The translations under genes were made by a program, and so were the position numbers. Shown here in pieces: positions 27,807 to 38,235 of a stretch of 46,187 bases of DNA (position 1 is the first letter of the stretch; every line of letters starts with the position of its first letter). Where the stretch lies: positions 1 through 46,187 of the forward strand of contig NZ_CAMVDO010000023.1 in the NCBI RefSeq assembly GCF_947166265.1. The letters are read 5' to 3'. The notes below the pieces were generated by a model. The model was not told the DNA's origin, made no database searches, and saw only the letters and a list, made by a program, of their open reading frames with translations. The stretch comes from an uncultured Fibrobacter sp. (lineage in GTDB: Bacteria > Fibrobacterota > Fibrobacteria > Fibrobacterales > Fibrobacteraceae).

Positions 27807-28001
27807 TTTGGCAAATGTGAATATGTTGTGTTATTGTGTCAAAACCTGTGGAAACTGATTTTTAATGTATCAACAAGATATTAACATATATTTGGAGGTG
27901 TACGACGTCCAAAATAACGATGATTTTTACTAGAACAGTACTTGTTGATAGATGCTAAATTACTAATTTTAGGTAAGTCACCGGTTATTGAGGTAGATTC
28001 T

Positions 28002-28325
28002 ATGCAGCCCTATATTCATCATTTTGCCAGCTTTTTAAGATTACACCTTGATTCCATTTCGGTAGGCCTGGTTGCAACGCTCCTGATGATTTACGGTGCC
28101 TTCATCAATAACTACTTCAAGAAGATTACAAGGAGCATTCCATTTGTGGGTCGGTTTGCCCTGTTCGTGGTTCTGTGCAGTGCGGGTTATGCGTTCCTGT
28201 CGTCGCAGATGGTGCGTTTCCTGAAAATGTTCCTGCGCGGACAGACGGACCTTGCGCTTATCGGAATTATCGCGGGCGCCTTCATCGTGCTAGCCTTTCT
28301 TGCCCGTAGCGGAAAGGACGTCTGA
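28002..28325 (+). CDS. small inner-membrane protein, DUF3392-like
   Basis: 107-residue protein with three predicted membrane segments (about 17-35, 48-66 and 82-100), resembling the DUF3392 family of small inner-membrane proteins of unknown function. Landmarks are the conserved first helix with VGLVATLLMIYGAFINNYFKK and the following FVGRFALFVVLCSAGYAFL. The ATG at 28002 is chosen over an upstream TTG frame because GAGG lies 8 nt before it and the family begins here. It is followed at 133 nt by the oxidoreductase-propeller gene on the same strand. No functional role can be assigned. Confidence 0.75.
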   Translation: MQPYIHHFASFLRLHLDSISVGLVATLLMIYGAFINNYFKKITRSIPFVGRFALFVVLCSAGYAFLSSQMVRFLKMFLRGQTDLALIGIIAGAFIVLAFLARSGKDV

Positions 28326-28458: not shown

Positions 28459-30342
28459 ATGAGTTCGGTTCTCAGGTTCGGAATTTTAGGAAGCGGATTT
28501 ATCGCGACGAAAATGGTAGAGGCTGTCAAGGCGCTCGAAAGTCGCGGAATGGGAGTTGAGGCCTATGCGGTTGCCTCGCGTACGCTTTCGCGGGCGCAGA
28601 AGTTTGCCGCCGATTATGGAGTCAGGCATGCCTATGGCAGTTACGAGGAACTTGCGAACGATCCGCAGGTAGACCTGATTTATGTGGCGACGCCGCACTC
28701 CGAGCATTATAATAATATTCTGCTTTGCCTGGAACACAATAAGAACCTGTTGGTGGAAAAGGCGTTTACCGCAAATGCGCTAATGGCATCCGAAGTGATT
28801 GCCCTTGCCGAAGAAAAGGGCGTGTTCCTGTGCGAGGCGATGTGGACGCGTTTCTTGCCCGCGGTGCAGATGGTGAAGGACTGGATTTCCGCCGGGAAGA
28901 TCGGCAAGGTCGAAAGTGTGGAGGCCGATTTCTCGATGCCGCTCACGCATATCGATCGCCTGCGCAAGCCTGAACTGGCCGGTGGCGCCCTCCTGGATTT
29001 GGGCATTTATAGCCTCACGTTTGCGGACATGTTCCTGAATGGCGACGCTGCGAACCCTATTGTCAAAACCGAGTCTAAGTGTGTCAAGTTCTCTACGGGT
29101 GTCGATGCCACGGACTGGATGGACCTGGTTTATGCGAGTGGACAGGTGGCGCATCTCAAGACCTCGATGGTGGCGCCGCTCAAGAACGAAGGTGTCATTT
29201 ACGGCACTGAAGGTTTTATCCGGGTGCAGAACCTGAACGACATGGTGGAAATCCAGCTATTCGATGTTGCCGGAACTTTGGTGGAATCCGTCATTCCTCC
29301 TCGCATCGAAAATTGCTACGAGTACGAGGTGCTGGGCTGCAAGGCCGCCCTGGAGAAAGGCCTCAAGGAATGTCCCGAGATGCCACATTCGAAAACCATG
29401 CAGATGATGACGCAAATGGATAGCCTCCGTGCCGCGTGGGGTGTAAGTTACCCGTTCGAGCTCAGCCCCGGCGAAGTCTGGGACCGCAGCGGCGACAGGT
29501 CAATTCTCGAAGTTTATGATATTGAAACGGGCAAGTCGGAAGTGCTCGACGAATTCGACCGCGTGATAGAGGCGCCCAACTGGAGCGCCGACGGAAAGTT
29601 CCTTACTTTCAATAGCGAAGGCCGCATCTATAAATACGAGATTGCGTCGGGCGACGTGAGCGAAGTGCCGAGCTATTTCGTGGACAACTGCAACAATGAC
29701 CATGTGCTTTCGCCGGATGGCGAAGGTCTCTACGTGAGTCACCACACCAAGGAAGACGGACTTTCGCGCATTTACAAGATTTTCTTTGACGGACGCATGC
29801 CGGAGCTCGTGACTCCGCTTGCCCCGAGCTACCTCCACGGTATCACTCCCGATGGCAAGGCACTCGCCTACTGTGCCGAACGGAATGGCGAATATGACAT
29901 ATACACCATTCCTGCGGTGGGTGGCAACGAAACGCAACTCACTACAGCTCTCGGCTTGAATGACGGTCCCGAATATGACTGCGACGGGGAATATATCTGG
30001 TTCAACTCGGTCCGCACCGGCCGTATGCAGGCGTGGCGCATGAAAGCCGACGGCTCCGAACAGACGCAGATGACGTTTGACGCACACTCAAACACCTGGT
30101 TCCCGCATATTTCGCCCGACCGCACGAAGGTCGTGATGCTAGCCTACCATGAACGTGACGTGCGCCCCGGCGAACATGTCCCGAACAAGAATGTGGAAAT
30201 CCGCCTGATGACCGGCAGCGATAAGATCGGCTGGAGTGAGCCGCGTACGATTCTCAAGCTGTTCGGCGGCCAGGGAACGATCAACGTGAACTCGTGGGCC
30301 CCCGACAGCAAGCGCTTTGCGTACGTGAGATATTCCAGGTAG
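28459..30342 (+). CDS. Gfo/Idh/MocA oxidoreductase fused to a TolB-like beta-propeller
   Basis: 627-residue protein in one uninterrupted frame. Residues 1-335 are a Gfo/Idh/MocA-type dehydrogenase: Rossmann motif FGILGSGFIA, VDLIYVATPHSEHY, and the catalytic Lys in LLVEKAFTANA (EKA instead of EKP, as in dihydrodiol dehydrogenase-like members). This domain ends with the normal family ending GVSYPFE. Residues 340-627 carry PD40/TolB-type propeller repeats: NWSADGKFLTFNSEGRIY, LSPDGEGLYVSHH, ITPDGKALAYCAERNGEYDIYTI, YDCDGEYIWFNSVRTGRMQ and ISPDRTKVVMLAY. There is no signal peptide, so the propeller is probably cytoplasmic. GAGG precedes the ATG. Substrate unknown; a sugar or polyol is likely. 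It ends 6 nt from recQ, tail to tail. Confidence 0.88.
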   Translation: MSSVLRFGILGSGFIATKMVEAVKALESRGMGVEAYAVASRTLSRAQKFAADYGVRHAYGSYEELANDPQVDLIYVATPHSEHYNNILLCLEHNKNLLVEKAFTANALMASEVIALAEEKGVFLCEAMWTRFLPAVQMVKDWISAGKIGKVESVEADFSMPLTHIDRLRKPELAGGALLDLGIYSLTFADMFLNGDAANPIVKTESKCVKFSTGVDATDWMDLVYASGQVAHLKTSMVAPLKNEGVIYGTEGFIRVQNLNDMVEIQLFDVAGTLVESVIPPRIENCYEYEVLGCKAALEKGLKECPEMPHSKTMQMMTQMDSLRAAWGVSYPFELSPGEVWDRSGDRSILEVYDIETGKSEVLDEFDRVIEAPNWSADGKFLTFNSEGRIYKYEIASGDVSEVPSYFVDNCNNDHVLSPDGEGLYVSHHTKEDGLSRIYKIFFDGRMPELVTPLAPSYLHGITPDGKALAYCAERNGEYDIYTIPAVGGNETQLTTALGLNDGPEYDCDGEYIWFNSVRTGRMQAWRMKADGSEQTQMTFDAHSNTWFPHISPDRTKVVMLAYHERDVRPGEHVPNKNVEIRLMTGSDKIGWSEPRTILKLFGGQGTINVNSWAPDSKRFAYVRYSR

Positions 30343-34665: not shown

Positions 34666-35721
34666 TTATGCGCCTAGGGATGGTTGCCCAAACTTGAAAA
34701 GCATGCTGTTGATTTCCCAAATGTCGTACTTTTCGCGTTCAATGAAAAATTTGACAATCAGATCACCTGTGTTGGAGGGTGAAAGCGCGAGTCCCGCGCG
34801 TGCGAGCAGGTCGGCCGTTTCGTCGAGATTCAGGTGCAGGGCGATGGCGAGTGCGAGCGCTGTCTTCTTGGTGGGCTTGTAATCCACGTTGCTACGGATC
34901 TTGGAAAAATGCTTGCGGTCAAGATTCGCCTTCTTGTAGACGTCGACATCGTCCAGGTTCTTTTCGTGAATCAAGTGGAAAAGCTTGTCGCAGAAAGTCT
35001 CGCCCGGTTTCGCAAGAATGTCGTCGAGGGATTCGGCGCATAGACATTTTGCATTGTCGTGCAGTTTGTCGATGCAATCTTCAATGTTGAGTTTAATGCA
35101 ATCCCTTTCGCAGTTTGCATTGTTCCAATTGGTGTTCCTGAGAATATCTCGGCGCTGCCTCAAGTAATCGTGTACATCGTTGTATTTGTCTTGTACATAA
35201 TTGTCGTCGATATAGGCGTGAATATCGCTGTACAGGTCTTCGGAAACTTCGAATGACTTGCGGTCAAAAACGACCAGCTGCACGTCCATCTCGTTTGTCT
35301 GCAAAAAGGCGCTGATAGCCTTTAACGCAATCTTCAGCGCGCTGTCCTTGGGGAACTTAAACACGCCGCTTGAAATCAGCGGGAATGCGATCGATTCGCA
35401 GTCGAGTTCCTTCGCCTTTTCGAGTGCGCCCGTGTAGCAGTTTTCAAGCGCAAGCATTTCGCCGGAAGCGCCACTGTTCCACTTGGGCCCGACGGTGTGG
35501 ATGATGTATTTTGCCTTCAAAGCGAATGCGGGGGTCACCGCGACTTCGGCGACCTTCAATGCCCCGACTTTTTCACGTGCCGCAAGCAGTTCCGCGTGGC
35601 CAGCCGCCTGGTAAATATGGTACTCCGCGCCACCACCGCAAATGGGGTTCTTGTTTGCGGAATTCACGATGGCGTCGGCCTTGACTTTGGTGATGTCGTT
35701 GCGAACAATTTTTAAAGGCAT
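34666..35721 (-). CDS. macro-domain protein with C-terminal HTH-like domain
   Basis: 351-residue cytoplasmic protein. Residues 1-170 form a macro domain: NDITKVKADAIVNSANKNPICGGGAEYHI, VAEVAVTPAF, and AFPLISSGVFKFP. The GGGxEYHIY loop is a variant of the more common GGGGVDGAIH form, so catalysis may differ. Residues about 240-351 form an all-alpha, XRE-like domain (VYKKANLDRKHFSKIRSN, KPTKKTALALAIALHLNLDE), ending NSMLFKFGQPSLGA. The start is the ATG at 35721; the longer frame adds intergenic-looking residues. It may sense or process ADP-ribose and regulate DNA or bind RNA. It precedes the VWA gene. Confidence 0.85.
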   Translation of the reverse strand: MPLKIVRNDITKVKADAIVNSANKNPICGGGAEYHIYQAAGHAELLAAREKVGALKVAEVAVTPAFALKAKYIIHTVGPKWNSGASGEMLALENCYTGALEKAKELDCESIAFPLISSGVFKFPKDSALKIALKAISAFLQTNEMDVQLVVFDRKSFEVSEDLYSDIHAYIDDNYVQDKYNDVHDYLRQRRDILRNTNWNNANCERDCIKLNIEDCIDKLHDNAKCLCAESLDDILAKPGETFCDKLFHLIHEKNLDDVDVYKKANLDRKHFSKIRSNVDYKPTKKTALALAIALHLNLDETADLLARAGLALSPSNTGDLIVKFFIEREKYDIWEINSMLFKFGQPSLGA

Positions 35722-35782
35722 AGTAACAGTCCGGTTTGACCTTAATATAGTTAAAAACCCAAATTTAGGTGCTAAAATAAAA

Positions 35783-35869
35783 AGGTCACTGAGTGGTACA
35801 CTGAGCTTGTCGAAGTGACTGAGAAATAGATGTGGGTAACGAAAGGTCACTGAGCCTGCCGAAGTGACC
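35783..35869. repeat. two REP-like palindromes
   Basis: CACTGAGCTTGTCGAAGTG at 35799-35817, and GGTCACT pairing with AGTGACC at 35845-35869 around GAGCCTGCCGA. These are related to the copy at 11428-11451. Confidence 0.65.
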
Positions 35870-36780: not shown

Positions 36781-38235
36781 TCACTTTTTCAAAGAATATG
36801 TCCTATTTCTATTCGCTCCATTGGAAACAATTTTGCCTTCTTCTACAAGATCAGCGAGATAAATCTTTGTGCGAGAAATCTTCAAGCCGATGTAAGCAGA
36901 GATTTCTTGAGAGCGGGCTTCTTCGTGTTCAGCAAGGAATTCAACAATCATTTTCTTGAACTTTGTCGATTTTTTATCGCCACTTTTATCGCCGTTTTCG
37001 GCGTTTATCGCCACTTTTTCGCCATATTTATCGCCATTTTCGGGATTTATCGCCGTTTTATCGCCACTTTTTAAGTTTATCGCCACTTTTTCGTCGTTAT
37101 TGTGGCGATAAAAGTTCACCCGGAACATATCCCCGATTTCGGTGAATTCGGGGAGTGCCACGCCGTATTCCTGGCACATCGTATTAATCCGCTGAAAACC
37201 GGAGCCCCACCCTTCGAGAACATGAACCTTTTCCAGCGTGCGAGCAAGAGTCTTGTTACGGATAGACGAGCGGCCACTTAGTGCCTCTTCCAAAGTCAGC
37301 GTTCCGTAAAGAGTTCCCGGCGAAGAAATCTCCACGCGGTCATCATATACAGCCACTTGCACGCTGGAATTCATTTGATAATTCCTATGAATTGCGGCAT
37401 TGATAATCAGTTCTCGGATAGCCTTTGGCGGAAGTTCATACTTTTCATCATGAACGACTCCGTTTATTTCGATAGCCATATTCAGGTGGTTGAGAACGAA
37501 TTTATAAGCGTCGTCAATCTGCTTGCAGAGCGGACCTTCGTAGTCCTTCTTATCCAAAAAGTCGGCCCGCATTGTTCCGCGGAACCGTGCACACTGAATT
37601 CGCGAAGTATATTCATGCTTGCCCAAGAGAATAGCCAACGCATTCGTCGCCTTGTCATGCGAACGACCTGCAAGCAAGTGCAAGTTTTCCAAATCAGCCT
37701 TTGTGATTTTTCGTTTGGAACGTTTTGAAAAATCCTTGCAAAGAAATTCTATATCATCATCGGTCACCTTGAGCGATCGGTACGGAAGTTCATCGTAAGA
37801 GATGTTTTTTCCGCGATTTTCAAGTTCACTAAGGGCAGCCAAATCGGCGTTGCGAGTGGTTGCTCCAAGGCGGATATACGTTCCGTTTTCTTTCCCCTGC
37901 GACTTTATATAATACGGGGTCGCCATTCCTGGGAACACCTGAATAATCAAAAGCTGCGCACCCTCAACAATTTCTGCCGTTATGTCGAACATTATTTGCG
38001 GTTCGCACATCTGCGAAATCTTGTCGGCAATACCGTCCTTGAGTTCGAACAGGTCGGCTTTTTTAGGGATGCCGATAAACTCCCGTCGATTATTCACGCC
38101 GATGACGAATTTACCGCCGGCACCGTTTGCAAAGGCGACGATAGACTTAATCCACTTTACGGAATCTTCGGGCAATTCCACCTTGTATTCCAAGGTGCGA
38201 CTTTCGCCATTCAGAATTTCTTGCTGTAAAGACAT
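36781..38235 (-). CDS. AlbA_2-domain/ATPase-type transcriptional regulator (Schlafen-like family)
   Basis: 484-residue protein of the AlbA_2 (COG2865) family, common in defence islands. The AlbA_2 domain is at about 1-130 (LEYKVELPEDSVKWIKSIVAFANGAGG, GVNNRREFIG), followed by a region with HATPase_c_4-like features: RELIINAAIHRNYQ, VYDDRVEISSPGTLYGTL and IRNKTLARTLEKVHVLEGWGSGFQRI. A low-complexity linker (about 380-420) is made of repeated AINxENGDK units. A C-terminal winged helix (AYIGLKISRTKIYLADLVEEGKI) probably binds DNA. An AGAGGA site lies 9 nt before the ATG. It lies 157 nt after the SIR2 gene on the same strand and may regulate or accompany the restriction operon. Confidence 0.85.
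   Translation of the reverse strand: MSLQQEILNGESRTLEYKVELPEDSVKWIKSIVAFANGAGGKFVIGVNNRREFIGIPKKADLFELKDGIADKISQMCEPQIMFDITAEIVEGAQLLIIQVFPGMATPYYIKSQGKENGTYIRLGATTRNADLAALSELENRGKNISYDELPYRSLKVTDDDIEFLCKDFSKRSKRKITKADLENLHLLAGRSHDKATNALAILLGKHEYTSRIQCARFRGTMRADFLDKKDYEGPLCKQIDDAYKFVLNHLNMAIEINGVVHDEKYELPPKAIRELIINAAIHRNYQMNSSVQVAVYDDRVEISSPGTLYGTLTLEEALSGRSSIRNKTLARTLEKVHVLEGWGSGFQRINTMCQEYGVALPEFTEIGDMFRVNFYRHNNDEKVAINLKSGDKTAINPENGDKYGEKVAINAENGDKSGDKKSTKFKKMIVEFLAEHEEARSQEISAYIGLKISRTKIYLADLVEEGKIVSNGANRNRTYSLKK
36973..37105. repeat. degenerate tandem repeat inside the AlbA_2 gene
   Basis: Seven TTATCGCC-type octamers in 130 nt on the plus strand, coding (minus strand) for AINLKSGDK-, AINPENGDK- and AINAENGDK-like units. 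The number of units could vary between strains by slippage or recombination while keeping the frame. Confidence 0.7.

Follow-up and report, generated by a model that had tools for sequence, protein, structure and literature searches.

The window (the whole 46,187-nt stretch of DNA from an uncultured Fibrobacter sp. analyzed here) carries on its forward strand a gene in which a Gfo/Idh/MocA dehydrogenase and a six-bladed TolB-like propeller are encoded as one chain. The frame can be read from GTG 28396 (648 aa) or from ATG 28459 (627 aa) to the stop at 30342, with no internal stops. As a GAGG motif is located directly 5′ of ATG 28459, this codon was considered the likely start and the 627-residue form was used. 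The features of the gene are as follows.

28459..30342, + strand: whole fusion gene, a single ORF of 627 aa plus stop; GTG 28396 is also possible
28459..29460, + strand: Gfo/Idh/MocA dehydrogenase domain, residues 1–334 (Pfam PF01408 and PF22725; 2o48)
28759..28761, + strand: Lys101, aligned with Lys97 of 2o48 (alignment; residue counted by hand)
29008..29010, + strand: Tyr184, aligned with Tyr180 of 2o48 (alignment; residue counted by hand)
29461..29499, + strand: 13-residue junction, residues 335–347, gap-free in a 23-sequence alignment
29500..30339, + strand: six-bladed TolB-like propeller of the 2OJH/Atu1656 type, residues 348–627 (sequence and structure matches)
29701..29703, + strand: His415, NNDH motif, blade 2 (79/79 non-Fibrobacter rows)
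29836..29838, + strand: His460, YLHG motif, blade 3 (79/79 non-Fibrobacter rows)
29962..29964, + strand: Asp502, NDGPE motif, blade 4 (79/79 non-Fibrobacter rows)
30106..30108, + strand: His550, WFPH motif, blade 5 (79/79 non-Fibrobacter rows)
30175..30177, + strand: His573, EHVPNK stretch (79/79 non-Fibrobacter rows)

A first-pass annotation had described the locus as a single-frame fusion of two complete domains, with the propeller starting right after the dehydrogenase, and this description holds. The 627-residue ORF (28459–30342) is uninterrupted, residues 1–334 and 348–627 are separated by the 13-residue junction, and the stop near 29470 that would have pointed to two wrongly joined genes is not present in frame. 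That the in-frame fusion is genuine is near certain. It is unlikely that the propeller is translated on its own from an internal start, since no in-frame ATG, GTG, or TTG codon was found in window positions 29419–29541 (residues 320 to 362). The corresponding junction region of 22 other fused sequences contains a GTG or TTG codon in 13 cases and an ATG in none; an AAGGA motif precedes ATG 29380, a site inside the dehydrogenase. The fusion protein is probably cytosolic, with no signal peptide seen by eye.

The genes surrounding the fusion in Fibrobacter are mostly not conserved from locus to locus, and none of them names a substrate. Clustering of the neighbors at 37 of the 38 Fibrobacter loci (L051 was left out) revealed no strongly conserved operon partner; one unnamed ORF family recurred in 14/37 loci and a thioredoxin-like gene in 10/37. 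Near the fusion gene in the window are encoded a small DUF3392 protein (27942–28325) and a macro-domain protein (34666–35850), both rare as neighbors in other Fibrobacter. At 36972–37085 the window contains an imperfect tandem repeat with a TTTATCGCC-like unit and several overlapping periods.

The first half of the protein belongs to the Gfo/Idh/MocA family. It matched PF01408 (GFO_IDH_MocA, N-terminal Rossmann domain) with 79.2 bits vs. a cut-off of 24 and PF22725 (GFO_IDH_MocA_C3, C-terminal alpha/beta domain) with 62.7 bits vs. a cut-off of 27, and the EK-motif Lys of the family is present as Lys101. Its best PDB relative is 2o48, a dimeric dihydrodiol dehydrogenase of mammalian origin (E 8e-51, residues 25–354 of the 648-aa form), to which residues 4–335 of the AlphaFold2 model are matched with Z 38.6 over 318 residues. 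Lys101 and Tyr184 align with Lys97 and Tyr180 of 2o48, which are the catalytic residues of that enzyme. In contrast to the fusion, 2o48 has no propeller, and its identity to the Fibrobacter dehydrogenase half is 34%; the substrate is therefore not transferable. The levoglucosan dehydrogenase model NF052479 gave a partial and weak match (E 8e-13, 47.9 bits vs. a cut-off of 650), which does not place the Fibrobacter protein in that family. In the window's genome the Gfo/Idh/MocA Rossmann family is matched only twice, once by the fusion gene itself, and the xylose-isomerase-like TIM-barrel family likewise twice.

In the second half, Pfam PD40 repeats were detected and the best PDB relative was 2ojh (E 1.4e-67, residues 367–646 of the 648-aa form), matched with Z 39.8 by residues 344–627 of the AlphaFold2 fusion model. 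When modeled alone, the propeller reached pLDDT 96.4 and pTM 0.92 and was superposed on 2ojh with Z 41.6 (273 aligned residues, rmsd 1.5), while TolB scored lower (Z ≤27.5). We assigned it to the 2OJH/Atu1656 type on the basis of a full-length match together with NNDH, HG, DGP(E/D), W-F-x-H, and GGQG, a motif set defined from the alignments of the present analysis. Atu1656 of Agrobacterium tumefaciens (2OJH) shares the NNDH, HG, NDGP, WFPH, and GGQGT motifs, but it is a stand-alone 297-residue chain without an attached dehydrogenase; it is labeled as putative TolB, and its PDB entry describes it as uncharacterized.

The designation TolB-like from the first-pass annotation is thus right for the fold and not for the Tol-Pal family. 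Tol-Pal TolB shares the six-bladed PD40 propeller fold (Z ~25–27.5), yet the TIGR02800 equivalog model gave 96.2 bits vs. a cut-off of 343.15. The two TolB chains compared do not have the conserved His/Asp residues of the Fibrobacter propeller where aligned (H573 was not covered), and the place of the TolB-type N-terminal domain is taken by the Gfo/Idh/MocA dehydrogenase. Unlike Tol-Pal TolB, the propeller family also occurs in Firmicutes, which are not known to have a Tol-Pal system.

A weak sequence and fold similarity links the propeller to oligogalacturonate lyase (PL22; 3c5m, 3pe7), a beta-propeller lyase acting on sugar acids that has seven blades and a manganese site. For 3c5m the profile E was 1.7e-4 and the Foldseek E 4.9e-8 (rank 44). 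As dipeptidyl-peptidase and S9 peptidase propellers score equal to or above the lyase, this kinship is a mere hint and is possibly generic. PF14583 matched 18/67 propeller members (best E 2e-6) and missed 49/67 at E 0.01; the window's propeller is among the latter, which does not support its membership in PL22.

The whole fusion was modeled with a mean pLDDT of 89.1 and pTM of 0.77. In the 23-sequence alignment gaps were found in 0/13 junction columns, compared with 85/405 dehydrogenase and 24/303 propeller columns. Clostridial stand-alone propellers start with stretches such as NPWYRDDDESILE, similar to the Fibrobacter junction, which indicates that hardly any linker was added.

To determine the distribution of the fusion, we used 37 genus genomes (36 besides that of the window) and a public genome scan from which 80 loci were kept; the two sets probably overlap, as L003 and L032 apparently come from one genome. 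The fusion was found in one frame in 31/37 genus genomes, three (G004, G026, G035) contain the dehydrogenase alone, and in three (G011, G021, G031; completeness 81–82%) neither half was seen. A propeller search of these six fusion-less genomes returned short TolB-like hits only. In the public scan 37/38 Fibrobacter loci were fused in one frame, the sole exception being L044, a MAG with a broken frame. The assembly behind the window is a draft in 89 contigs, so that two genes joined by a frameshift or an assembly error, named in the first-pass annotation as what would overturn the fusion, had to be considered; the recurrence of the fusion with a fixed 13-residue junction in the other assemblies refutes this and leaves an artefact with a negligible probability. 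In one Fibrobacter fusion (L064, 1841–4042), repeated GRDDM-type low-complexity inserts are present in both the dehydrogenase and the propeller.

Purifying selection acts on both halves, with dN/dS far below 1. The ratio was 0.063–0.143 for the dehydrogenase (defined in 12/14 pairs) and 0.033–0.162 for the propeller (13/14 pairs), the values being rough because several synonymous distances were saturated. The propeller had the lower dN in 13 of the 14 pairs.

Trees of both domains (quick searches with SH-aLRT support only) were used to infer the origin of the fusion. In the propeller tree (99 rows), the 20 Fibrobacter propellers formed one clade (support 100) within stand-alone Firmicutes propellers, with enclosing forks supported at 81–95, which suggests that the gene was transferred laterally from a clostridial donor. 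Among the matches listed for 23 other Fibrobacterota genomes (G037–G059; E down to 2e-8), no full-length propeller was found, only partial TolB-like ones. The dehydrogenase-only genes L112, L113, and L114, in which the propeller is lost at the domain boundary and the dehydrogenase kept, are distributed over three separate sets composed mainly of fused genes, each set starred at 100. Accordingly, the fusion dates from early in the genus, which has lost the propeller on three occasions. Repeated gain of the fusion in place of losses was rejected, given the single propeller clade and the position of the dehydrogenase-only genes inside fused sets. These losses also show that the propeller is dispensable for the dehydrogenase half. 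After the loss, the L112 dehydrogenase evolved faster (p 0.002 to 3e-8 over four comparisons), and no significant rate change was detected in L113 (three comparisons) or L114 (four comparisons); acceleration in one of three lineages was not accepted as a general pattern.

The public scan also revealed free-standing propeller genes in Clostridia, Paenibacillus, and Bacteroidota. The statement that separate genes for such domains occur side by side elsewhere was confirmed at two kinds of loci. At L147 two separate same-strand genes encode the dehydrogenase and, 91 bp further downstream, the propeller, with an SDR gene and a gene resembling a sugar-transport binding protein as neighbors. The second kind comprises nine loci in eight genomes (L151, L157–L163, L169) of Anaerocolumna's clostridial order, presumably Lachnospirales, in which the propeller is fused behind a TIM barrel. 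At 5/9 of these a Gfo/Idh/MocA gene in the same orientation directly precedes the fusion gene; it abuts the latter or is separated from it by no more than ~30 bp in L158–L161 and lies ~190 bp away, with a partial frame, in L162. As the nine loci share descent, these are not five independent events. The barrel is xylose-isomerase-like, with Pfam E values of 2.6e-7 and 1.2e-6, just below the cut-off, in 2/3 scanned and no match in L163. The L151 barrel matched PDB 8bvk (E 8.9e-8), and the divergent L163 barrel matched a barrel profile built in the present analysis (E 1.4e-7). The five upstream dehydrogenases belong to a different subfamily from that of the Fibrobacter dehydrogenase. Their best NCBIfam match was levoglucosan dehydrogenase in 5/5, nearly full-length in 4/5 (E 6e-44 to 5e-42), at ~144–150 bits vs. 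the cut-off of 650. In the near relatives L082 and L090, dehydrogenase, propeller, and TIM-barrel genes lie side by side in this order.

A further type of fusion was found in Bacteroidota (L145, L146, L164–L168, and Spirosoma L126), where the propeller follows a ~220-residue N-terminal domain. No Pfam match was confined to this domain in the 4/8 proteins scanned, and the one tested against the PDB gave nothing better than E 0.32. Several of these fusions have a signal-like start.

The surroundings of other propeller genes were variable. On a Qingshengfaniella plasmid the propeller gene closes a series of same-strand genes that includes sugar ABC and isomerase genes, and on an Agrobacterium plasmid sugar ABC, isomerase, and Gfo/Idh/MocA genes are 2–8 kb from the propeller on the opposite strand. 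No sugar transporter or Gfo/Idh/MocA gene was seen in the Sinorhizobium, Parabacteroides, and Spirosoma propeller neighborhoods. A dehydrogenase-like ORF was present in the flanks of 5/42 stand-alone loci, a count that leaves out L147, which was chosen for its adjacency, vs. roughly 2.2–2.5 expected from counts in two genomes. At about twice a rough expectation, this enrichment is not convincing; the accompanying neighbor clustering was partial, with 17/42 loci left out.

Outside Fibrobacter the dehydrogenase-propeller fusion itself was not found in the genomes of the four orders searched. A whole-protein search of 246, 149, and 198 genomes of three orders (E limits 1e-40, 1e-45, and 1e-40; no more than 5, 8, and 6 candidates scored per genome) returned none, a negative result that does not extend to the composition of the long frames in which some dehydrogenase matches lie, e.g., 657 aa in G727. 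None was detected either by a propeller search among 295 genomes of a fourth order, where the only long propeller ORF (L122) lacks a dehydrogenase match in the part preceding the propeller.

To identify residues under the strongest constraint, we aligned 130 propellers, removed rows with a stop, with <250 residues, or identical to another, and counted the 79 rows from outside Fibrobacter, most of which are stand-alone copies without an attached dehydrogenase. N413, H415, H460, D502, H550, and H573, four of the six being His, were identical in 79/79 rows, Q605 in 78/79, and E371 and E505 in 76/79. In the models E371, H415, H460, D502/E505, and H550 lie in or at the start of the strand preceding a repeated PDG-type turn in successive blades, and the strand order suggests that they would be placed where propeller channels are lined. 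The window's propeller departs from the otherwise strict consensus of the non-Fibrobacter rows in blade 3 (29764–29847, residues 436–463) at P442F, G446R, W462I, and S463T, near His460.

Taken together, these data are best explained by a bifunctional cytosolic sugar enzyme on one chain. The N-terminal half would act as an NAD(P)-dependent Gfo/Idh/MocA dehydrogenase converting between the hydroxyl and keto forms of a sugar, a glycoside, or a polyol, with Lys101 and Tyr184 serving in the oxidation or reduction of this sugar-like substrate. The C-terminal propeller would be an enzyme of the uncharacterized 2OJH/Atu1656-type family, with the strictly conserved His/Asp/Glu/Gln set in its channel probably forming a metal or acid-base site. 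It may act on the substrate of the dehydrogenase or on its unstable keto product by elimination, hydration, epimerization, or hydrolysis. A single acquisition of a clostridial-type propeller gene would have preceded the divergence of the sampled Fibrobacter, and this gene would have been appended to a dehydrogenase gene, so that two consecutive steps could be kept on one chain. The fusion and its conservation, the two predicted folds, the position of the propeller within clostridial copies, the conserved residues, and the recurrent partners are observed; propeller catalysis, the metal, the channel position of the residues, the shared substrate, the direction of the reaction, and the cytosolic location are inferred. 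No activity, ligand, or metal was found for any member of the propeller family, which counts against this reading. We consider the chances about even that the propeller is itself catalytic and shares a keto-sugar pathway with the dehydrogenase.

Among known systems, the levoglucosan/3-keto-glycoside route (LgdA, LgdB1, LgdB2, LgdC) is a close parallel. In this pathway a dehydrogenase forms a 3-keto sugar, and proteins annotated as sugar phosphate isomerase/epimerase carry out beta-elimination and hydration (PMC7676230). Both systems pair a Gfo/Idh/MocA dehydrogenase with a partner, in the route a sugar-isomerase-like one, and the TIM-barrel fusion of the propeller lies just behind an LgdA-like gene at 5/9 loci. 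On the other hand, no propeller is mentioned in the passages considered (PMC7676230), and the match of the Fibrobacter dehydrogenase to the LgdA model is partial and weak.

The first-pass annotation had read the propeller as a scaffold or a substrate gate, and a non-catalytic domain that binds, holds, or delivers a sugar for the dehydrogenase would fit a fold common to non-enzymatic TolB and YWTD receptor propellers, many of which are binding platforms. However, free-standing propeller genes in Clostridia, Paenibacillus, and Bacteroidota encode the same His/Asp set, and the propeller is fused elsewhere to two other, unrelated partners, which argues that it has a job of its own. With six positions kept in 79/79 mostly stand-alone relatives, gating is not the best reading of the data and we regard it as unlikely; a catalytic propeller fits better. 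Yet another explanation is that the halves are merely co-translated, working independently on different substrates, and that their fusion is an inherited, neutral accident of gene order. The three separate propeller losses with the dehydrogenase kept agree with this, as do the unchanged dehydrogenase rates in two of them (L113, L114) and the lower propeller dN, a sign of its own constraint. Against this, the fusion is kept in 31/37 genus genomes with a fixed junction length, Gfo/Idh/MocA genes adjoin the propeller in some other bacteria, and the L112 dehydrogenase sped up after the loss, making independent halves quite unlikely in our view.

Extending the reading of a catalytic propeller further, the family may represent an unrecognized beta-propeller class of carbohydrate enzymes (keto-glycoside lyase, hydratase, or hydrolase) that has been joined at least three times to different partners, the Fibrobacter form being a single-chain oxidize-then-cleave enzyme for plant-derived sugars; this proposal is possible, though doubtful. 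Fibrobacter is a key fiber degrader of herbivore guts and uses few sugars. No description of the dehydrogenase-propeller fusion was found in the titles and abstract openings of the open-license papers searched. Both domain families are already known, and the function of the propeller family is the real question. For the widespread, structurally solved 2OJH propeller family, sugar chemistry is indicated by the fusion and its relatives, which also open the function of this family to direct testing. Should the propeller be an enzyme, the annotations "TolB family protein" and "biopolymer transporter Tol" would be misnomers.
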